From Muribaculaceae bacterium (lineage in GTDB: Bacteria > Bacteroidota > Bacteroidia > Bacteroidales > Muribaculaceae), in assembly GCA_029058745.1 (NCBI GenBank), contig JAIDXM010000049.1, positions 173,069 through 237,068 on the forward strand: DNA of 64,000 nt, written 5' to 3'. The stretch's first letter is position 1; every line of letters begins with the position of its first letter. The position numbers and the translations under genes are program-made. The notes below the pieces were generated by a model that did no database searches, was not told where the DNA came from, and saw only the letters and a program-made list of their open reading frames with translations. Positions 10,194 through 54,708 of the stretch are shown here, piece after piece.

Positions 10194-10757
10194 TTAATTC
10201 ACTTTGATGAGCTCCACTTCAAAGATGAGGTCGGAGTTGGGGGCAATCACACCGCCGGCGCCTCTCTCCCCGTAGGCGAGGTCTGAGGGGATGTAGAATA
10301 TTGTCACGCCACCCTCTTTCATGAGCTGCAGGCCCTCGGTCCATCCCGGAATCACGGCTCCGAGCGGGAATGCGGCGGGCTCTCCACGGCTCACGGAGCT
10401 GTCGAACACAGTTCCGTCGGTGAGACGTCCGGTGTAATGCACAGTCACCTCGTCGGCAGCTGTGGGGCTTTTCCCGTCACCCTCTTTCATCACCACATAT
10501 TTGAGTCCTGAAGGGGTCGTCACATATGTGGAGTCGGAAGGAGTCTCGCTCTGTCTGTTCTTGTCGTTGAAGAAGTCAGGGCCGTATGATGCGGCTTTTT
10601 CCTGGTCTTCATTTGAGAACTGCGATTCGCGGGGAGCCGGAACTTCCGCCACCTGTGTGTTTTCGTCAGTCTTTCCGGCTTTTTCGCTTTTGCAGGAAGA
10701 CGCGCCGGCGAGCGTCATTACGGCCAAGGCGGCCGCCATGATTATATTTTTTTTCAT
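10194..10757 (-). CDS. FKBP-type peptidyl-prolyl isomerase lipoprotein
   Basis: The 187-residue product has a lipoprotein signal (ALAVMTLAGASSC; Cys22) and a Glu/Lys-rich linker. A complete FKBP_C domain fills about residues 85-187 with the hallmark blocks VTVHYTGRLTDGTVFDSS, IPGWTEGLQLMKEGG and AYGERGAGGVIAPNSDLIFEVEL. FKBP proteins catalyse cis-trans isomerisation of prolyl bonds during folding; this one would act in the periplasm. Its start codon overlaps the stop of the upstream FKBP gene by 4 bases, which indicates translational coupling. Confidence 0.93.
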   Translation of the reverse strand: MKKNIIMAAALAVMTLAGASSCKSEKAGKTDENTQVAEVPAPRESQFSNEDQEKAASYGPDFFNDKNRQSETPSDSTYVTTPSGLKYVVMKEGDGKSPTAADEVTVHYTGRLTDGTVFDSSVSRGEPAAFPLGAVIPGWTEGLQLMKEGGVTIFYIPSDLAYGERGAGGVIAPNSDLIFEVELIKVN

Positions 10758-11344
10758 TTCTTGATTACCTTGATGAGTTCAACCTCAAAGATAAGTGTGG
10801 AATGAGGCGGTATTGCGTTAGGCACTCCCTGCGGGCCGTATGCGAGGTCGGAAGGGATGAAGAACGTATATTTTCCACCCTCTTTCATGAGCTGCACGCC
10901 CTCTGTCCATCCCGGGATGACACGGTTGAGCGGGAATGTGGCGGGTTCGCCACGGCTTACAGAACTGTCGAACACAGTGCCGTCGAGAAGCTTGCCGGTG
11001 TAGTGCACTGTCACTTCGTCAGTGGCGGAAGGCTGTGCGCCGGTGCCTTCTTTCTCCACGATATACTGGAGTCCGGAAGCGGTTACGTTCACATTCTCCT
11101 TCTTGAGGTTCTCCTGAAGGAACTTGTCGCCGACAGCCTTTATCTCAGCCGCCTTCTTCTCGGTGAGTTCCTGGAGGTAGGTCTGTATGGTCTGGTTTGC
11201 CTCTTCAGGCGACATTTTTGTTTCCTTGCCGTCGAAAGCCGCGTGTACAGCTTCGTCGAAATCTGCTTTGTCAAGGTTGTCCACGCCCATTGCGCGGAGT
11301 TGCTGGCCGAGGGCCATGCCCCAGGCGTAACTAAGTTTGTCCAT
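10754..11344 (-). CDS. FKBP-type peptidyl-prolyl isomerase, FklB/FkpA type
   Basis: The 196-residue product has an N-terminal helical dimerisation domain (MDKLSYAWGMALGQQL and the following 80 residues) and an FKBP_C domain. Its blocks are VTVHYTGKLLDGTVFDSS, IPGWTEGVQLMKEGG and AYGPQGVPNAIPPHSTLIFEVEL. No signal peptide is visible, so it is probably cytosolic like FklB, in contrast to the lipoproteins that follow. It is the first gene of the four-gene operon and its 3' end overlaps the next gene by 4 bases. Its catalytic domain is closely similar to that of the next gene, which suggests tandem duplication. I could not place a clear promoter in 11345-11490. Confidence 0.92.
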   Translation of the reverse strand: MDKLSYAWGMALGQQLRAMGVDNLDKADFDEAVHAAFDGKETKMSPEEANQTIQTYLQELTEKKAAEIKAVGDKFLQENLKKENVNVTASGLQYIVEKEGTGAQPSATDEVTVHYTGKLLDGTVFDSSVSRGEPATFPLNRVIPGWTEGVQLMKEGGKYTFFIPSDLAYGPQGVPNAIPPHSTLIFEVELIKVIKK

Positions 11345-14130: not shown

Positions 14131-14181
14131 GCTATATATTTTATTAATGTTGGTTTAGTTGACTGTCCATCTGATGTTGAT

Positions 14182-17100
14182 TCATGAGATTCCGTCAGGC
14201 GGATTGTCGTCGGGAGATGAATCTTTCTCCTTGCGGTGGAGAGCGATGTATTCCGAGGCGCTCATCCCGAATTCCTTTTTGAAAGCTTTGGCAAAGGCCG
14301 AATGTCCGTTGAATCCAGCCTGGTAGGCAATCTCGTTGAAACTGTATGAGCCCTCCTCAAGCATCTCCTTAACCCTTGCGAATCTCACCTGACGTATAAA
14401 ATCGTTGGTTGACATCCCTAACAGGGAGTTCACCTTACGGTAGAGAGTGGAGTAGCTCATGCATAGTTCGTTGGCTATATACGACACTCCGAGTTCCTTG
14501 TTCGGAAGATTGTTCTTGATAATCTCTATCATTCTTTCCACAAATCTCCGGTCGGCTTCCGTAAGCGATTGCTCTTGATTCAATGAATCTGTTGATTGGG
14601 AGGTAATTGATTGGGTGTCTGATGTTTGTGTAGTTGGGGGGGTGGAAGTGGACGCTGACATTTTCAGGATTCGCTCCCTCATTGTTTTCCTGATTCTCAA
14701 GATATTCTGTAATCTTGTGAGGAGCAGTTTCGCGCTGAACGGTTTCGTGAGATATGAATTGGCTCCGGCGGCATACCCCTCTTCCTTGTCGGATATGGAG
14801 TCTTTCGCCGTAAGCAGAATCACCGGGATGTGGGAAGTCTGGAAATCGTCTTTAATCATACGGCATAGGGTTATGCCGTCCATTTCCGGCATCATGATAT
14901 CAGAGATGACAATATCGGGACATTCCTCCTGCACCAATTTTATACCTTCGAGTCCGTTTTTCGCCTCGATTGTGTCATATGCAGGGGCGAGAGCCTGTGT
15001 TATATAAGCACGTATTTCGGGATTGTCATCAACCACAAGCACCTTCATTCTTGCGGAAGATTCAGGAGCGTCCGGTTTGCGTTGTCCTGCATCCGGCTGG
15101 TCCCCGTGTATAGCCTCCGGATATATATTGTCGGTGGCGATACGGAATGTGAAAACCGAACCTTTCCCCAGTTTGGATTCCACAGACACGGATGCCTGAT
15201 GGAGTTCAGCCAGGTTTTTCACGATAGCCAGTCCGATGCCGGTTCCCGATGCCTGATGGGCTCCGTCGGTTTGGTAGTATCTTTCAAAAATATGCTTCAT
15301 CCCCTCTTCCGATATTCCATGTCCTGTGTCGGCCACGACAATGTCTGTGTGCCTGGAGCCATTGTCGGCATACGTCTTGCATGAGAGGGTGATTGTGCCG
15401 CAGTCTGTATATTTCACCGCGTTCGACATCAGGTTGTTCACGATTGTGGTGATCATCTCCGAATCGAAATATATGTCGTTGCCGATATCCTCGATTTCGA
15501 GATTTATCTCCACATCCGGATTATGGTTCAGCTCCTTGAATCTCAGTCCCAATTCCCGGATAAGGTTTGTCAGGTTGCCTGCCTTTACATGCAACTGGCG
15601 GTTCTGGGTTTCCGTTTTCCTGAACTCAAGAATGCTGTTGATCATAGAAAGGAGCGAAGTTGAGCTGTCGCGTATCATCTGCAGTTTCGGAGAGAACTGC
15701 GACGGCATCGAGGGGTCGCTGACCAGGTCTTCAAGCGGGCCGAGGATGAGCGTGAGTGGAGTGCGCAGCTCATGAGTGATGTTGGTGTAGAAACGGAGTC
15801 TCTCCTCATTCAGAACCTGCTTGTTGCGGCTGTTTTCCTCAAGCGTAAGCAACTGTTGTTTCAGTTTGATTCTGTTCTTGTAGAATATGAAGGACACGGC
15901 AATGACGGCTATGAAAAGGAGGACATACAGGGTCATTGCCCACCAGGTGAGCCACAGCGGGGGCTCGATTATGATTGTCAGCACCGTTTCCGGCTCGCTC
16001 CAGTTATGCCCTTTCTGGCGTTGTTTCACCATAAACCGGTATGTCCCCGGGCTCAGATTCCGGTACAGGGCGTCTGTACCGTTCGCGGCGGAAATCCAGA
16101 CATTGTCGATGCCATCCATCTTGTAGGCGAAATCGGTGGTCTGGGTCATCGCATGGTCGAGGATATTGAATGATATCCGGAATGTGTTCTGCCTGTATTG
16201 GAGCTCAATCCTGTCGGAGGTCACGGGGATTGAGATTTCGTTTTCCTTCCTGTCTCCCCCCTCCTTGAACACCGTGAAGTCGGTGATATGTACCCTCGGA
16301 GTCTCTTCCATGTCGAGTGCGCCCGGAGTGACAGAGAAGAGTCCGTTTCCGGATGCGAAATATATGTTGCCGGCAGAGTCGGATGTCGCGGCGTTCTCTA
16401 TGAAAGTGTGTAGAGGGAATGTCTCCGAAATCTCATATAATATCGCGTCGTCGCCTGATGCGTTAATCCTCGCCAGCCCACGGTTGGTTGACGCCCATAT
16501 GTTATGGGAATTGTCTTCGGAGATGGCTTGTATGTGAGAGATTCCGAGATTGTCGATGGCTTCAAGTTTATTGTATGCCGAGGGGTGTTCGTCCGGCTCA
16601 GGGATAAGTATCAGTCCCCCTCTCGTCGCGGCCCATATCCTCCCCTTGGAGTCGCATCTGAGCGCGTTGACCGCATTCGACGGGAATCCTGTGGCCTCTT
16701 CGAGATGAGCCAGACATTCCAGGTTCTTGTTGAAGACGGCGATTCCTTTTCCGAATGACCCCACCCAGAGGTTGCCTTTACGGTCGAACGCCAGTGTCTG
16801 TATCACGTGGTCGTAAAGTTTATTGTTGACCGGTTCGTTCCTTACCGCCCTGTCCCGTTCTGTGTCGAAAAGGAACACCCCGCCGTCGCCGCCAATCCAG
16901 ATGTTGCCTCCGGAATCTTCGGCGAATACCCTCACGTCGGCGGGAAGGCCCTGAATCTGTCGGAAAGACCTTGACTTCGGGTCGAACAGCATTCCGCCAC
17001 GGTCATATGTCCCGACCCATACTCTTCCCTTTGAGTCAGTCTTTACCGCCCTCACGAAAGTCTTGCCGTCGGAAGAGGCCTTCGGGAGAGGGATAATCTC

Positions 17101-47719: not shown

Positions 47720-47962
47720 TTACTGGATTTCCCGGAGAGCTTTTGAAAGCTGGTCAGGACATGATGTCGGCTTGTTGCCGCATTTGATTCCATCAAGTTT
47801 AGCGACTACTTCTTCCACGGTCATCCCTTTCACGAGCGAGGAGATGCCTTGGAGATTGCCGTGGCAACCACCGATGAATTCCACATCCTTCACGATTCCG
47901 TTCTCGACTTCGAGATTGATGACACGCGAGCACGTCCCTTGGGTCTGATACTGATATTTCAT
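47720..47962 (-). CDS. TSCPD-domain protein (TIGR03905 type)
   Basis: The 80-residue protein matches the small TSCPD-domain family: YQTQGTCSRVINLEVENG, VEFIGGCHGNLQGISSLVKGM and CGNKPTSCPDQLSKAL. The four conserved Cys residues (11, 33, 61, 68) could bind metal. The domain also occurs at the end of some ribonucleotide reductases; the role of the stand-alone form is not known. The ATG at 47962 gives the family length; a longer upstream frame is non-coding. Its promoter (48008-48015) lies inside the left direct repeat. Confidence 0.85.
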   Translation of the reverse strand: MKYQYQTQGTCSRVINLEVENGIVKDVEFIGGCHGNLQGISSLVKGMTVEEVVAKLDGIKCGNKPTSCPDQLSKALREIQ

Positions 47963-47997: not shown

Positions 47998-48372
47998 TTG
48001 TTGTGTGCAAAATTACAAAATAAAACCGATTAAATGGTGTGTATGTAGTGAAATCGGACAGTGAAATCGGATTGTCCGATTGGGTGTAAGAGCCATGTGT
48101 CCCTCTCAGATGTCCGGTCGTTTTCTGTAGGAAGATGGGCTCATCCCCATCACCTTTGAGAACAGTCGAGAGAAATAATAAGGGTCGGAGATTCCCACCA
48201 TGTGGCATATGCAGTTGAGTTTCATGTCAGTGCTGTCGAGAAGCTGGCAAGCGTGTCTCACTTTTAGCAGATTGAAATAAGCGAGAGGTGAATGTCCGGT
48301 CCTCTCTTTGAACACAGAAGAGAGGTATGATTGAGAGTAACCGGAATATGAGGATAGCTGTGAAAGGGTTAT
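47998..48372. repeat. Left direct repeat (DR1) flanking the AT-rich island
   Basis: It begins TTGTTGTGTGCAAAATTAC and ends GTGAAAGGGTTAT, and it matches 53598-53953 in the same orientation. It covers the promoter region of the TSCPD gene and the last 254 or so bases of an AraC-family gene. Compared with DR2 it has a 13-base insertion near 48059 and some changes in the non-coding part, but only five differences in the coding part. Confidence 0.92.
48008..48015 (-). promoter_or_regulatory. -7 element of the TSCPD gene with AATCGG half-sites
   Basis: TAATTTTG on the minus strand. Upstream of it lie CCGATT at 48026, AATCGG at 48052 and 48065, and CCGATT at 48076; the last two form AATCGGA-TTG-TCCGATT. 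These could be operator half-sites. The same set, with one half-site fewer, is present in DR2. Confidence 0.5.
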
Positions 48373-48432
48373 AATCAGGGTGCACAGGCTTTCCGGAGTA
48401 TGATAAATCTCTGAATCAGCTGAGATGCTCAA
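48106..48432 (-). pseudogene. 5'-truncated AraC-family regulator copy
   Basis: The frame encodes an AraC-type HTH domain (TLSQLSSYSGYSQSYL to SSSYRKRPDI) identical in amino acids to the C-terminal 87 or so residues of the regulator at 53687-54568. The sensing domain is missing; the 22 or so preceding residues come from unrelated sequence and the only available start is TTG at 48432. The five base differences from the intact gene in this part are all at synonymous third positions. It is either a recent remnant of recombination or a kept stand-alone DNA-binding domain; I favour the remnant. Confidence 0.75.
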
Positions 48433-49150
48433 ATATTTATGTATTGTCTATAACTGTGGATACGTGGAATATGTCTTTCATAAGGATTAAAAGTATAAGA
48501 CGTAATTGATAGGCTATTTTGTAAAAAAGAATCGACAATTTTATAAAAATTGTCGATTCTTTTTAAATTTTTTAGAAAAAAACAGAATATATTAAATTTT
48601 TTTATTAACTTGCGACATAAATGTAGAACTCTTTATCAATGATAAATGAAGACTGCAAGAATTAAATGGATTGAATGCACTTGCCTTATATAATTTGCAC
48701 GCAATGAATTATATTTGTTAACAAGGATGTTCAAGTTTGATGTTCCATGATTAACTCGCTTTATTAGGAGTCTTGGAGCGCAGAGCCACCCGATTTGGAT
48801 ATAAAACTCTCCCTGGCTCGGAGATCTATATACATAAGTTTAACATTGGCCAAGCGTACTTTGAAATTTTGTTTTTAGTCTCAGAATAGACATAGATTTT
48901 TGGATATAACGGCAGCATTAGCATCATGGGTATGGCTTCGGGATGTATGAACCTGATTTTCTCATTGCTTTACAGCCGATTATTAGACTATAAAATCGCT
49001 AAGATCCAGTGTATTATCCATGTTTTCGATGTGCTGTTTTGTGCAAAAAAACAATATTTTGATCATATGTTTTTATTGTTTTTCAGGTGTTTTGAATGAC
49101 GTTTTTCGGAACATAGAACTGAACACCCTATTTACTAACCTTTAAAAGAG
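48433..49150. other. AT-rich gap at the left end of the island
   Basis: About 720 bases without a supported gene. It contains a strong hairpin at 48524-48564, a possible -7 element TATATTTG at 48710-48717 on the plus strand, and ACTAACC at 49134-49140, 10 bases before the peptidase start codon. No transposase, integrase or terminal inverted repeat is visible. Confidence 0.6.
48524..48564. terminator. AT-rich bidirectional hairpin terminator
   Basis: AAAAAGAATCGACAATTTT pairs with its complement around a 2-3 base loop, with A-runs on the left and T-runs on the right. It separates the truncated araC copy from the island genes. Confidence 0.8.
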
Positions 49151-51826
49151 ATGCGTATGAAATTGAAAATGATCCTTTTGATGTTAATGCTTTTTGGAGG
49201 ATTGTCCATAAAAGCTGCCGGCACTTATAAAATTTCCAGATCGGATGCCTTGGAAATTGCAAAACGGATGTTTTATGATAGAGATGTTGACTATTTTTAC
49301 CTTCAAAGTGTAAATGTCAGCACTATGAAAGTGCATACAGTTTTTGTTGATGCTGAACCAATGAAGGGTTGGCCACATGAGTGTTATGTTCTTGAAATAG
49401 ACAAAACGTCGTCATCTCCAGTAGGATTCACTTCTCCAAAAAATGTTGCCCGAATGAATTATCCTCCGATGCAAAACTATGAAACTCTCTATGTTCGTAA
49501 TAGATATGGAGGCAAAGCTAATTCGGTACCTAATGTTAAAAATGGGGTCCTTACCAATGACATAAAAGAGGTTGCGGAAAGAACCTATGCTGTGATATTG
49601 AGCGGTGGACATAATAAGTTGTCGAATTATGAGCGTTATTGGAATGATTGTTCATTTATTTATCAAACATTGGTAAGAAAATATGGAGTGCCTAAAGATA
49701 ATATTTTCCCAATTATGTCTGACGGTGATAATCCTGAACCCGATGTGAGATGTACTACCGGTGGTTTTAAGTCTCAGTCTCTTGACCTTGATTTCGATGG
49801 TATGAATGAGACAGTACTTGCGGCTACCCATCAAAATGTTCAATCAATACTTAAATCGTTGGAGAGTAAATTGAAAAAGGATGACCATTTATTCTTTTAT
49901 GTAATTGATCATGGTGGAACTTATGATAATTATACGGACTCATATATAAACCTTTGGGATGGTGAGATATTAAGGGATTATGAACTTGCTGAGATGCTTA
50001 CTCCATTTACAAATAAATTTATTAATGTCAATGTTGTTCTTGGACAATGTTATTCTGGTGGATTCAATGACAATTTAACTAAAGTGGGATGTGTGGTTGC
50101 TTCCGCTTCAACAGGTAGTGAGAGTTCGTGGGCGTGTCCTGATATTCCTTATGATGAGTTTGTCTATCATTGGACATGTGCTGTAAATGGTGCTACTCAT
50201 GAGAATGTAAAAATTGATGCTGATTCAGATAATAATGGACGAGTAACAATGAAGGAGGCTTTTGATTATGCAAAGGCTAATGACAGGAGAAGTGATGAAC
50301 ATCCGCAATATGTTTCGACTCCGATTTCGGTTGGTGAAGATTTGGCATTCAATAATCTGGCAAAATCGGTGGATCTATATATTAAGGATAATGAATTGGA
50401 TACGGGAAAGGAACCGAATGTTACTACCGATGAATTTTGGAAGAGTCCGTCAATTTGGGTTCGTAATCAGGACGATGGGATAGAGATTCATGAGAATCCG
50501 ATATATTCTCCCGATCATTTGGCTGCTATTGTTTATGTAAAAATCCATAATAGGGGTAAGGAGGATTATGAAGGAGGACAGTGGTTGCATGTATATTGGG
50601 CTAAAGCCTCAACTGCCTTTAATGATAAAGCTTGGAAAGGAAGGGAACTGTACAATGGTGCTTATGTTACAGGGGGGCATCTCGATGCTGTTTGCATTCC
50701 GAGAATTGAGGCCGGTGGTTATGAGGTAGTTAAAGTGACATGGGCATTGCCTCCTATTCTTGTTGGTGCAACTGATGAGGACAAACATCATTTTTGTTTG
50801 AAAACAAAAATAATGGATATACATTATGATGAAAAATATGAGGCAGGAAAGAGATATTTTGATTTAAGAGGGTGTAATGATCAGGCTCAGAAAAATGTGT
50901 CCATTATCTCTAAAGACGCTTTTTTATCAGGTACACTTGTGTTCGTTAGAAATGTTTCGGATCAGACGAAGAATTATACTTTGGAACTAATACCTTGCTC
51001 TCAGACGGATGAGTCGGTATATGAAATGGCAAATGTAGAATTGGATTTAAGTCCAACAATCTATAAGGCGTGGGAGAGAGGCGGATTGAGGTCGCAAGAT
51101 GTTGTTGTCGTCCCGTCAACAAGATCAAATGGTTCAGATACAAAAACTGTAAGATTTATATCTCCCAATAGTAAGCTACAATCTGTGAATCTGAAAGGAG
51201 AAGAGTTTGATATTGTAAGCTTGAAATTCGATTTCAAAGATTTCCCAACTAAGAATGAGAAATATGCTTTTGATTTGATTCAAAGAGATGAAGATGGGAA
51301 TATTATAGGAGGTGAAACTTTTATTGTTGAATCACCTACTTTGGTATCTGGACAATTAGGAATAACGGCTTCACCGATTTCGTGTTCGAAAACAAGGCTA
51401 TATATTGACAATGAAGATGTTGTCCGGCTTAAGTGGGTTGACGAACAAGGAAATTATCTTGGAGATTCAGAAAGTATTGAAGTTTCGCCAGTTCTGGGTA
51501 AAAATAATTATACTGTTATTGCTACTACAGAAAATGGAGACGTTCTAAGGGATGACATTTCTCTGGATTCTTATTTTGGAATAAAATCAGTTGATATGCA
51601 TAAGGACTCGAATAGTTTAGAAGTTGGATTGAATGGGCAGGCTACTGATAATTCTGTTATTTTGATTTCTTCTGTATTGGATGGAAATGTGAATTCAAGT
51701 AAAATTATTCCGAATGGTGATAAATGCGTATCTATTGATGTGTCTGGCTTTCATGAAGGACTATATGCGGTGATTCTTACTGTAGATGGGGTAGTAATAG
51801 ACCAAAAGAAAATAAAAGTATATTGA
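49151..51826 (+). CDS. Secreted clan-CD cysteine peptidase with C-terminal sorting-like domain
   Basis: The 891-residue exported protein has a signal peptide (ILLMLMLFGGLSIKAA) and a short pro-region. A caspase-fold peptidase domain (about residues 140-400) of the legumain/gingipain-like type follows: the catalytic His is His254 in YVIDHGGT and the Cys is Cys300 in VVLGQCYSGGF. Strands TYAVILSGG and HLFFYVID precede them as in family C13. Immunoglobulin-like beta domains fill residues 430-800, and the last 70 or so residues (EGLYAVILTVDGVVIDQKKIKVY) resemble a type IX secretion C-terminal signal. Codon use is clearly more AT-rich than the flanking genes. It is followed by a BspA-like gene and lies between the direct repeats. 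Confidence 0.85.
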   Translation: MRMKLKMILLMLMLFGGLSIKAAGTYKISRSDALEIAKRMFYDRDVDYFYLQSVNVSTMKVHTVFVDAEPMKGWPHECYVLEIDKTSSSPVGFTSPKNVARMNYPPMQNYETLYVRNRYGGKANSVPNVKNGVLTNDIKEVAERTYAVILSGGHNKLSNYERYWNDCSFIYQTLVRKYGVPKDNIFPIMSDGDNPEPDVRCTTGGFKSQSLDLDFDGMNETVLAATHQNVQSILKSLESKLKKDDHLFFYVIDHGGTYDNYTDSYINLWDGEILRDYELAEMLTPFTNKFINVNVVLGQCYSGGFNDNLTKVGCVVASASTGSESSWACPDIPYDEFVYHWTCAVNGATHENVKIDADSDNNGRVTMKEAFDYAKANDRRSDEHPQYVSTPISVGEDLAFNNLAKSVDLYIKDNELDTGKEPNVTTDEFWKSPSIWVRNQDDGIEIHENPIYSPDHLAAIVYVKIHNRGKEDYEGGQWLHVYWAKASTAFNDKAWKGRELYNGAYVTGGHLDAVCIPRIEAGGYEVVKVTWALPPILVGATDEDKHHFCLKTKIMDIHYDEKYEAGKRYFDLRGCNDQAQKNVSIISKDAFLSGTLVFVRNVSDQTKNYTLELIPCSQTDESVYEMANVELDLSPTIYKAWERGGLRSQDVVVVPSTRSNGSDTKTVRFISPNSKLQSVNLKGEEFDIVSLKFDFKDFPTKNEKYAFDLIQRDEDGNIIGGETFIVESPTLVSGQLGITASPISCSKTRLYIDNEDVVRLKWVDEQGNYLGDSESIEVSPVLGKNNYTVIATTENGDVLRDDISLDSYFGIKSVDMHKDSNSLEVGLNGQATDNSVILISSVLDGNVNSSKIIPNGDKCVSIDVSGFHEGLYAVILTVDGVVIDQKKIKVY

Positions 51827-51971
51827 TTTATGAAAATGTGTTATAATTGATTTTTTTATATAGGCATTCGATAAGATTTTGAATCAAATGTTTGATTTTC
51901 AATTTTACGTTGTGAGACAATGTATATTTATTAAAATCAATTATGGCACATCTTCAGATAATAAGATTATT

Positions 51972-53489
51972 ATGAAAGATTTTACATTATTTGTTATTTC
52001 GGTACTGTTTGTCTGTATTGAAGGCATTGCAGGAGAAAGAGATATTAATTGTGTGGTGGATGCGATTGCAGATAAGAAAACTGAAATTTCAGAGGATTTG
52101 ATGCAAGAAGAAATCAGTTTGGATCATAAAAGGATTTTTTTGCAAAATAAGACAAGAGCTTCTGAGGGAGATTCTGAAGGAGTGATTTTTAAGGAGATTA
52201 CAGTTCCAGCTGCCGGGATGTTGGCGGATGTTCTCGGAGCAGATGTTAATACCGTTGATTCCCTTGTGGTGAAAGGAGAAATAAATGAAGCTGATTTCAA
52301 CACTTTGTGGTCTGGGACATTTTATGGGAGACTATCGTCAATCAATCTTGAGCAGGCTGTCGTGGAAAACGGAATTATCCCGTCGAATGCATTCTGGCAT
52401 AAGGAAGAACAGTGGCCTGGCGATGAGACTATATATGTAAATGGGCTCAGGAAACTGATTCTTCCGGAAGGAGTCAAAGCCATAGGAGATTTAGCTTTCT
52501 CATACTGTATTCATCTTGAGTCGATTAACTTCCCGACAACTTTAGGAAGTCTTGGAATGTATTGTTTTTCTGATTGTATTTCTTTAGGGACATCCCCTTT
52601 GCAATTACCTGAAGGTATGTCAGATGTGCCTCCAATGTGTTTTCTGAACTGTGAATCGTTGGACAGTGTAATTCTTCCTACAACTATCAGTCATATCGGA
52701 GAAGGAGCGTTTTACAGAGCGAAACTGAGTCGGATAAATCTTCCTGAGGGATTGCGTTCAATAGGCAATTGCGCATTTTATGCCTCCAATCTGTTGGAGG
52801 TGTCGTTGCCGGCATCTTGTCAGGATTTTACAGGAACCCATCACTTTGCATTAAATCATGAATTGAAAAAAATTAATATTCCTCTCGGAGTGAAGAGAGT
52901 GCCTAATTGTTTTGTCTTTAACTGTGTGAAGCTAAAGGAAATTGAAATTCCTGAAAGTCTTGAAATTATCGGAGATGATGCTTTTTCAACCTGTTATGAA
53001 TTGTTGGGACTAAATCTGCCGGAAGGGTTGACGAGAGTGGAATCAAATGGGTTATGGTATTGTAAGTCGCTTAAAAAGCTTGTTTTACCTTCATCTCTTA
53101 CCTATCTTGGAGGAGCCAGTTGCATGTATATGCAGTCGTTGGAGGCAATATATTGCATGGCACCGGTTCCGCCAGTGTGTGACGAAGATCCGGCTAATCC
53201 GGGAAGAGACCATACTTTCGGAAATATTATGGGAGAACCTTCTCATCTTTGCACGCCTAATAACATACCTGTTTATGTGCCTGTGGGAACGGCAAATTTA
53301 TATGCATCCGCTTATGGATGGAATTATTTCAATAATTTTATAGAAGTGGATTTCTCCGGAATAGACGAGGTTCATGTTGCGGATCGCACTAATGATATTG
53401 TTTATAATTTGAATGGAGTTAGAGTCTATAAATTGATTCCCGGGAATATGTACGTAAAGAATGGAGTAAAGTTTGTCTATGCTGAGTGA
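51972..53489 (+). CDS. BspA-like leucine-rich-repeat secreted protein
   Basis: The 505-residue exported protein starts at the ATG at 51972, where a signal peptide follows (DFTLFVISVLFVCIEGIAG); the upstream extension is non-coding. From about residue 155 it has LRR_5 repeats of the BspA type (LRKLILPEGVKAIGDLAF, INLPEGLRSIGNCAF, IEIPESLEIIGDDAF). Then come the APVPPVCDEDP and YVPVGTANLYASAYGWNYF element and the tail IVYNLNGVRVYKLIPGNMYV. BspA-like proteins bind host proteins, cells or other bacteria. It lies 145 bases after the peptidase gene, shares its AT-rich composition and is followed by a perfect palindrome. Confidence 0.88.
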   Translation: MKDFTLFVISVLFVCIEGIAGERDINCVVDAIADKKTEISEDLMQEEISLDHKRIFLQNKTRASEGDSEGVIFKEITVPAAGMLADVLGADVNTVDSLVVKGEINEADFNTLWSGTFYGRLSSINLEQAVVENGIIPSNAFWHKEEQWPGDETIYVNGLRKLILPEGVKAIGDLAFSYCIHLESINFPTTLGSLGMYCFSDCISLGTSPLQLPEGMSDVPPMCFLNCESLDSVILPTTISHIGEGAFYRAKLSRINLPEGLRSIGNCAFYASNLLEVSLPASCQDFTGTHHFALNHELKKINIPLGVKRVPNCFVFNCVKLKEIEIPESLEIIGDDAFSTCYELLGLNLPEGLTRVESNGLWYCKSLKKLVLPSSLTYLGGASCMYMQSLEAIYCMAPVPPVCDEDPANPGRDHTFGNIMGEPSHLCTPNNIPVYVPVGTANLYASAYGWNYFNNFIEVDFSGIDEVHVADRTNDIVYNLNGVRVYKLIPGNMYVKNGVKFVYAE

Positions 53490-53501
53490 CTTTATATGGT
53501 C

Positions 53502-53541
53502 GTTCCGGCAAATTCCGTTGCAACGGAATTTGCCGGAACGG
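53502..53541. terminator. Perfect 40-base palindrome after the BspA-like gene
   Basis: Arms 53502-53521 and 53522-53541 are exact complements (CGTTCCGGCAAATTCCGTTG and its complement). It lies 12 bases after the stop codon and no T-run follows, so it may be a terminator, an RNA end protector or a protein-binding site. Confidence 0.75.
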
Positions 53542-53597
53542 GATAAAAGTGCTAACTTCCCCTCCCTTCATCCTTATTGGTTTTGCAACAATTTGAT

Positions 53598-53953
53598 TTG
53601 TTGTGTGCAAAATTACAAAATAAAACCGATTAAATGGTGTGTATGTAGTGAAATCGGATTGTCCGATTGGGTTATGTGTGGTTCTCTCAGATGTCCGGTC
53701 GTTTTCTGTAGGAAGATGGGCTCATCCCCATCACCTTTGAGAACAGTCGAGAGAAATAATAAGGGTCGGAGATTCCCACCATGTGGCATATGCAGTTGAG
53801 TTTCATGTCAGTGCTGTCGAGAAGCTGGCAAGCGTGTCTCACTTTCAGCAGATTGAAATAAGCGAGAGGTGAATGTCCGGTCCTCTCTTTGAATACAGAA
53901 GAGAGATATGATTGCGAGTAACCGGAATATGATGATAGCTGTGAAAGGGTTAT
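53598..53953. repeat. Right direct repeat (DR2), part of the intact araC locus
   Basis: Same orientation and about 95 percent alike by eye with 47998-48372. It holds the 3' end of the intact AraC gene and a copy of the TSCPD promoter region (-7 element at 53608-53615) that now points toward the end of the BspA-like gene, with no TSCPD gene behind it. Confidence 0.92.
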
Positions 53954-54568
53954 GGTGCGCTCAATGTTCTCATTCATGAAGTGGATTGTGGCGTCTATAA
54001 TGTCGCGGTCGCCGGATTTTTCTCCGGCGCTACGGTATTCACGGAGATAGCGTAATGTGCCGAGGTAGTGATGGAACAGCGACATCGCGTATCTGATTCC
54101 CTCTATGCTGAATCCGGAGTCGAGAGTGGAGAAAATTTCCTCGAAGAGATTGGTGCGGTTGCGGATTCTGGAGCCTATCCCGGGATTTATGAGATGAGGC
54201 ATCGCGCAGTCGGCGGCATAGTGCCGTGCCAGGGTTCCGCTGAAATGAATCCAATATATTGTCCATGGATTTTGCTCCTTCGCACCGTATGAATGAGGAA
54301 TTCCTGCGGGGAGTATGAAATATGAATTGGTAGCCACCTCATTCCTGACGCCCTCTACCTCAAACCAACCCTCACCGGCGGTGCAATATATGAAGACATA
54401 TTCCCCGATAGGTTCCGGACGTTCCCTGAAATGGTATCCGGCATCGGGATAATACCCTATGGCAGTGATGTGAAGTGCCGACAATACCGGGTCGGCCATC
54501 ATCACGTCAAGTATCATCTTAGGCAATACTATGGAACGTTGTCCGGAGAATCCGTCGCGTAGTTTCAT
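53687..54568 (-). CDS. AraC-family transcriptional regulator
   Basis: The 293-residue regulator has an N-terminal cupin-type ligand domain (about 35-150, with GEYVFIYCTAGEGWFEVEG and YFILPAGIPHSYG) and a C-terminal AraC HTH (about 200-293). It begins HFMNENIERTITLSQLSSYS and ends in RLFSKVMGMSPSSYRKRP. This form usually senses a sugar and activates a nearby operon. It is divergent from the sugar porter operon at 54709-64000, its probable target. Its last 254 or so bases are repeated as a truncated copy at 48109-48372. Confidence 0.94.
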   Translation of the reverse strand: MKLRDGFSGQRSIVLPKMILDVMMADPVLSALHITAIGYYPDAGYHFRERPEPIGEYVFIYCTAGEGWFEVEGVRNEVATNSYFILPAGIPHSYGAKEQNPWTIYWIHFSGTLARHYAADCAMPHLINPGIGSRIRNRTNLFEEIFSTLDSGFSIEGIRYAMSLFHHYLGTLRYLREYRSAGEKSGDRDIIDATIHFMNENIERTITLSQLSSYSGYSQSYLSSVFKERTGHSPLAYFNLLKVRHACQLLDSTDMKLNCICHMVGISDPYYFSRLFSKVMGMSPSSYRKRPDI

Positions 54569-54610: not shown

Positions 54611-54678
54611 ATGATAAAAAAGTGATATTGTCCATTATTTTGGAAAGAAAATGCATTTTATCGGTGATGGAAAGGGAG

Positions 54679-54686
54679 TAATTTTG
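54679..54686 (+). promoter_or_regulatory. -7 element of the sugar porter operon
   Basis: TAATTTTG, 22 bases before the start codon at 54709. TTTT near 54656 is a poor -33 element, in keeping with need for an activator such as the divergent AraC protein. Confidence 0.55.
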
Positions 54687-54708
54687 CGGTGTTAAAACTA
54701 TAATCACC

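Follow-up and report, generated by a model that had tools for sequence, protein, structure and literature searches.

The window analyzed here, i.e., a 64,000-nt stretch of contig JAIDXM010000049.1 from a Muribaculaceae bacterium, includes a 5.2-kb island that is enclosed by two direct repeats and holds just two large genes. The gene order runs from LrgA and LrgB through a TSCPD gene (minus strand) to the first repeat (DR1), a 778-bp spacer, a C13 cysteine peptidase gene, a BspA-like gene, a hairpin, and the second repeat (DR2). Next come a whole araC gene (minus strand), into which DR2 runs, an MFS transporter gene, and a gene for a DUF5107 protein. Through DR1, the TSCPD gene abuts an orphan araC end; DR2 connects the island with the complete araC. 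The features are listed below.

47720..47962, minus strand: TSCPD-domain gene (TIGR03905 family), left neighbor, intact (Pfam 3e-30, NCBIfam 4e-36)
47998..48372, no strand: DR1, 375 bp, intergenic promoter region and araC 3' end (orphan copy)
48007..48016, minus strand: predicted -7 box GTAATTTTGC ahead of the TSCPD gene, within DR1, from a pattern search
48106..48432, minus strand: orphan araC 3' end, a 108-aa open frame with a TTG start, HTH part only (HTH_18 3e-20)
48524..48564, no strand: terminator-like hairpin, 41 nt self-complementary with A/T runs at the flanks, from an opposite-strand self-match
48724..49130, minus strand: decayed insertion sequence (IS)-like remnant, with inverted ends near 48724 and at 49109-49129
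49151..51826, plus strand: C13 (legumain-family) cysteine peptidase, 891 aa (Pfam PF01650, 4e-13)
51972..53489, plus strand: BspA-type LRR protein, 505 aa from the ATG (Pfam PF13306, LRR_5, 7e-63)
53501..53540, no strand: terminator-like inverted repeat, perfect over 20 bp, past the BspA stop
53598..53953, no strand: DR2, 356 bp, the DR1 segment again, running on into intact araC
53687..54568, minus strand: AraC-family regulator, intact, 293 aa (Pfam ligand-binding domain and HTH)

DR1 and DR2 run in the same direction and are 92.8% identical in a gapped alignment, with an ungapped 277-bp core at 97% identity and an identical stretch of ~170 bases. This alignment bore out an earlier note on this DNA, which had described near-identical repeats in the same orientation with coordinates that proved right to the base, and which had placed the araC 3' end and a promoter region (here a predicted one) in each of them. 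The local alignment starts from 47998/53598 and the identity block extends up to 48372/53953, past which GGTGC alone re-aligns, with a 6-nt offset. Within the araC part, 262 of 267 nt match, leaving five substitutions across 88 codons, while the copies differ in the intergenic part by gaps of 13, 1, and 5 nt and by several substitutions; the 13-nt gap reads as a tandem duplication within DR1. These last 88 araC codons are kept in the orphan frame, the first ~20 codons of which are island-derived. An Rfam search yielded one sub-threshold match and nothing above threshold.

A DNA search of the source genome found, at the search threshold, two copies of the repeat segment, namely DR1 and DR2. In 128 fetched sequences (1.99 Mb with the window, partly overlapping), we detected five direct repeats of ≥100 bp spaced >1 kb apart, among which DR1/DR2 alone combined a length of ≥150 bp with an identity of ≥90%. 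Against such rarity, 567 kb sampled from the source genome (18% of 3.17 Mb) contained four more direct pairs (≥100 bp, ≥90% identity, >1 kb apart), three of them amid genes that by eye resemble lipoprotein paralogues (contig C56, 74932-122926) and the fourth a serpin pair on contig C97. The repeats at 66.9–129.5 kb of C56 were considered as a comparable case and rejected, as they read by eye as lipoprotein paralogues. Elsewhere in the window, an 81% direct repeat (10270-10454 and 10836-11020) lies between two neighboring ORFs of 187 and 196 aa, which are probably paralogues.

The predicted -7 box lies 45 nt ahead of the TSCPD start in DR1 and is present in both repeats (48007-48016 and 53607-53616). 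The pattern has 4 matches within the window vs 1.28 expected, including a further copy at 54678-54687, 22 nt ahead of the MFS gene, and it fits the Bacteroides -7 consensus TAnnTTTG as given in an excerpt of PMC7366714. Owing to its length, the duplication breaks neither the araC frame nor the predicted promoter of the TSCPD gene. Among relatives, none of 80 fetched araC loci had a TSCPD match and none of 14 fetched TSCPD loci had an AraC match; an MFS gene was found in 62 and DUF5107 in 56 of the 80 araC loci. TSCPD itself occurred in 17 of 111 genomes of the genus (own included), and in other genomes the DNA of the region was matched at 71–72% at best. Because no fetched relative has both genes adjacent, it is the repeats themselves that would point to araC followed by TSCPD as the ancestral order. 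The exact empty-site pattern, in both allele lengths, was absent from viral contigs, a collection that is a poor place for such a site.

Both island genes were identified by the earlier note as encoding a cysteine peptidase and a BspA-like protein, and the Pfam matches (Peptidase_C13 and LRR_5) agree. The C13 protein scored 49.8 bits against PF01650 (cut-off 22.8), and a weak match to legumain 4aw9 (E 2e-4) aligned its DHG and C-x-SG stretches, which we take to be the catalytic His and Cys sites. The BspA-like protein scored 210.6 bits against PF13306 (cut-off 27.7). The C-termini of both proteins resemble a type IX secretion sorting domain by eye, with no Por_Secre_tail match at E 0.001. Of 111 genomes of the genus, counting the source genome, 9 have C13 relatives (E ≤ 1e-20), and a BspA match lay within the same fetched locus as C13 in 8 of 14 cases; among the six loci without one, three (L129–L131) end at a contig end on the BspA side. 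The surroundings of these C13–BspA pairs vary between species, which is the behavior of accessory cargo and agrees with an acquired island. At one locus (G083, contig C19, 7393-14410) the C13 peptidase lies near a gene for a C25 (gingipain-family) peptidase. On contig C57 of the source genome (6635-9762), a low-GC BspA-like gene is followed by a 172-aa ORF between 162-bp, 92% direct repeats.

The island has a GC content of 36.7%, compared to a mean of 52.0% for same-sized stretches elsewhere in the window (sd 1.4, minimum 47.9%), in line with the lower GC content that had been noted by inspection. This low GC is a trait of the C13 family and does not prove recent import: in fetched C13 loci from other genomes of the genus, the C13 stretch (36–48% GC) was below its locus in 14 of 14 cases, and low GC was therefore rejected as proof of import. 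Another low-GC region of the source genome (C56, 162000-166500, ~38%) was scanned and gave no long direct repeats.

No integrase, mob, or tra gene was found between DR1 and DR2. The earlier statement that neither an integrase nor a transposase is visible thus stands for the integrase, and needs amending for the decayed IS-like remnant at 48724-49130, which is separated from DR1 by 351 bp and stops 21 nt short of the C13 start. Its left half is 82% identical to a segment of C56 in the same genome (270595-270804) that adjoins a tyrosine-recombinase fragment (Pfam 4e-14). On C56 (locus L180, 12596-13436), an insertion-sequence end lies by a tyrosine-recombinase fragment close to the contig end. 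Matches to the remnant were found in 8 of 111 genus genomes, own included, and in other genomes 5 of 9 places end at or ≤1 bp from a contig end, where multi-copy elements often end. In G069, a different species, the left 200 bp of the remnant match the end of a 355-codon open frame that had no Pfam or NCBIfam match; similar proteins occur in 14 plasmid records (the eight listed are all hypothetical or unannotated), and we infer that this frame is transposase-like. Both halves of the remnant occur in G133, in a 506-bp form. Given its distance from the borders, the remnant is not the maker of the repeats. A composite transposon or IS insertion would have IS copies at the island borders, whereas here the IS-like remnant is internal. 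We accordingly rejected an integrase- or transposase-bounded element as the origin of the borders, the island having no such gene.

Next, we considered how the two araC ends diverged. All five substitutions between them are synonymous, which has a chance probability of 0.0007–0.0017 under neutrality, varying with transition bias, and of ~0.01 (hand estimate) with part of the change allowed in a working gene. This suggests that the copies probably diverged as parts of working genes, i.e., that during most of the time since the split the orphan end probably belonged to a functional araC, in which case its source would be either another strain or a complete duplicate. All five substitutions are confined to 108 of the 267 nt, at one end (P ~0.01), a clustering that suggests gene conversion between the copies and to that extent blurs the divergence argument.

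Taken together, these data are best explained by a single-crossover (Campbell-type) entry of foreign DNA, a reading to which we assign a probability of roughly one-half. The repeat-flanked island is a real structure and probably a one-off insertion, of a kind already known but in an unusual natural setting. A circular (or circle-like) molecule would have carried the C13 and BspA genes along with ~360 bp comprising an araC 3' end and the downstream promoter region, this araC end being derived from a relative whose araC was intact. At the shared stretch, RecA-type recombination would then have opened the araC–TSCPD junction and left one copy on each side, so that araC stayed full-length to the right and TSCPD retained a predicted promoter to the left. 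An exchange between DR1 and DR2 could in turn delete the island scar-free, restoring araC, promoter, and TSCPD in succession. The hallmarks of such an event are present: a host segment in the same direction at both ends, with the whole gene at one end and the opposite neighbor at the other. In Bacteroides, chromosomal DNA delivered by conjugation integrates by homologous recombination, according to an excerpt of PMC5729914. The earlier note had offered this Campbell-type interpretation; the anatomy fits it, and the all-synonymous divergence favors a second, once-working araC end over an old in situ fragment, although the low GC that might have seemed to support it is no proof of import.

The synonymous-only divergence would be accounted for equally well if araC and its downstream sequence had first been duplicated in tandem, with both copies functional for some time, and the island, brought by an element of any type, had then replaced the 5' part of the TSCPD-side copy. 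Paralogue pairs with homogenized 3' ends do exist around peptidase genes, as for the C97 serpins of the source genome and in G083. However, this scenario requires two events. In addition, the DNA search of the source genome gave the two ends only and no araC tandem came to notice, and the homology breaks off sharply, the island retaining nothing of the 5' part of araC. We therefore regard it as unlikely.

A replication slip would require no donor: with the island already beside araC, ~360 bp could have been copied to its far side through template switching or a similar non-tandem duplication. In its favor, the outer edge of DR1 coincides with the predicted TSCPD transcription start and its inner edge is arbitrary within araC. 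An orphan end produced in this manner should nevertheless decay freely, yet 5 of 5 changes are synonymous (P ~0.001 to 0.01), which makes this origin quite doubtful.

We give little credence to integration at GTAATTTTGC by a CTnDOT-type integrase, with an element whose imprecise excision had earlier brought along chromosomal DNA and whose own genes were lost afterwards. The box fits GTANNTTTGC, the CTnDOT attB consensus, which is present near the outer edge of each repeat (48007-48016 and 53607-53616), but its occurrence here is inseparable from that of the predicted promoter box. An element of this type also adjoins the nearest C13 homologue found. Against this, the box may be a plain -7 promoter, another copy of which lies ahead of the MFS gene, the repeat identity extends 9 nt past it, and the island has no integrase. 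Finally, an assembly chimera of two strains or loci joined within the repeat is highly improbable: the genome is a draft of 111 contigs and the repeats have ~170 identical bases in common, but each copy has private differences, the contig is 272.8 kb long, and the contamination estimate is 0.09.

For the single-crossover entry, the carrier had been left as unknown. A plausible one is now indicated by the closest C13 homologue found, which belongs to another species of the genus (G030; 61% over residues 3-664, its contig starting inside the gene). This gene lies on contig C41 (locus L129, 1-20000), 1.2 kb from MobC (1054.7 bits, cut-off 900), followed by MobB and MobA, with TraG, TraJ, TraK, and TraM further along, as in a Bacteroides-type conjugative transposon. 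In all, four C13 matches occur in G030, with three at contig starts. No TraG-family (ICE ATPase) match was found in the source genome, which is 92.75% complete. As to a donor or circle, the plasmid, phage, and viral collections provided no useful match: the C13 search gave one weak hit in plasmid records (Photobacterium, 24%), no match in phage records, and no relative in viral contigs. We infer that a conjugative transposon is the likeliest vehicle, which is plausible given this homologue.

We also evaluated whether C13–BspA modules might be integrase-free cassettes that move with a captured piece of a host gene and home by RecA to the end of that gene. Each insertion would then be bracketed by gene-end copies with its neighbors spared; such a general mechanism is possible but unlikely. 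Of the 14 other C13 loci fetched, 4 have C13 enclosed by direct repeats of 45–1450 bp. At G144:C33, a 68-bp coding-like direct repeat lies tightly around the C13–BspA pair; its right copy is near a contig end rich in G and C runs, and the C13 match contains one internal stop. The same locus (L136, 3589-13348) has a CXXX-repeat radical-SAM peptide cluster beside the pair (TIGR04115 and TIGR04119, with TIGR04117 sub-cutoff). In G013, the enclosing repeat is a BspA paralogue pair. The 390-bp repeat at G083:C3 (L140) was rejected as an insertion scar, as it represents the common 3' halves of two small secreted-protein genes, and the perfect 45-bp repeats at G083:C19 (L139), which have a hairpin inside, were read as terminator copies rather than an insertion mark. 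At G144:C8, with long flanks on both sides, there was no enclosing direct repeat, and a comparison of the intergenic DNA by C13 and BspA with the contig (minus 2,000 contig bases) yielded no convincing att-like direct repeat. Several C13 loci are cut by contig ends. Since the four enclosing repeats differ in kind and G144:C8 has none, a shared cassette mechanism seems improbable. On C97 of the source genome, a 94% direct repeat (10993-11142 and 14143-14291) composed of serpin 3' ends (serpin 1.6e-67) and downstream sequence encloses a C10 peptidase (Pfam 1.5e-11) and coincides with the sole 2-kb interval below 40% GC among 260 on that sampled contig. In this region (L215, 10627-14291), a truncated serpin is followed by the C10 peptidase and an intact serpin, at a local GC minimum. 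Our literature search found nothing on C13–BspA islands or gene-end-flanked islands in Bacteroidales.

If the single-crossover reading is correct, a gut commensal would here have gained, naturally and reversibly, accessory genes for a protease and a surface protein that brought no recombinase of their own, and the length of the duplicated stretch would be just sufficient to leave intact the regulator as well as the predicted promoter of its neighbor. It would further show conjugative-transposon cargo settling through homology alone, and provide a clean test object for repeat-mediated loss.

Among known systems, the island resembles a Campbell-type plasmid co-integrate in having a piece of a host gene repeated at its ends, with one gene copy whole and the other truncated, and in being reversible in principle; unlike such a co-integrate, it has no replicon, and no donor molecule or empty site was found. 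CTnDOT-type conjugative transposons of Bacteroidales are linked to it through the C13 homologue 1.2 kb from MobC in such an element, but the island lacks integrase, mob, and tra genes and is flanked by ~360-bp copies rather than a short core. In the conjugative chromosomal transfer of Bacteroides fragilis, as described in an excerpt of PMC5729914, conjugation-delivered DNA is likewise taken in by homologous recombination, although there segments of 125–482 kb replace host DNA by double exchange, whereas here 5.2 kb were added. In the source genome, the C10 peptidase at C97:10993-14291 is likewise an accessory cysteine peptidase, set in low-GC DNA and flanked by same-direction copies of a gene 3' end, but its serpins look by eye like old paralogues and its repeat spans just 150 bp.
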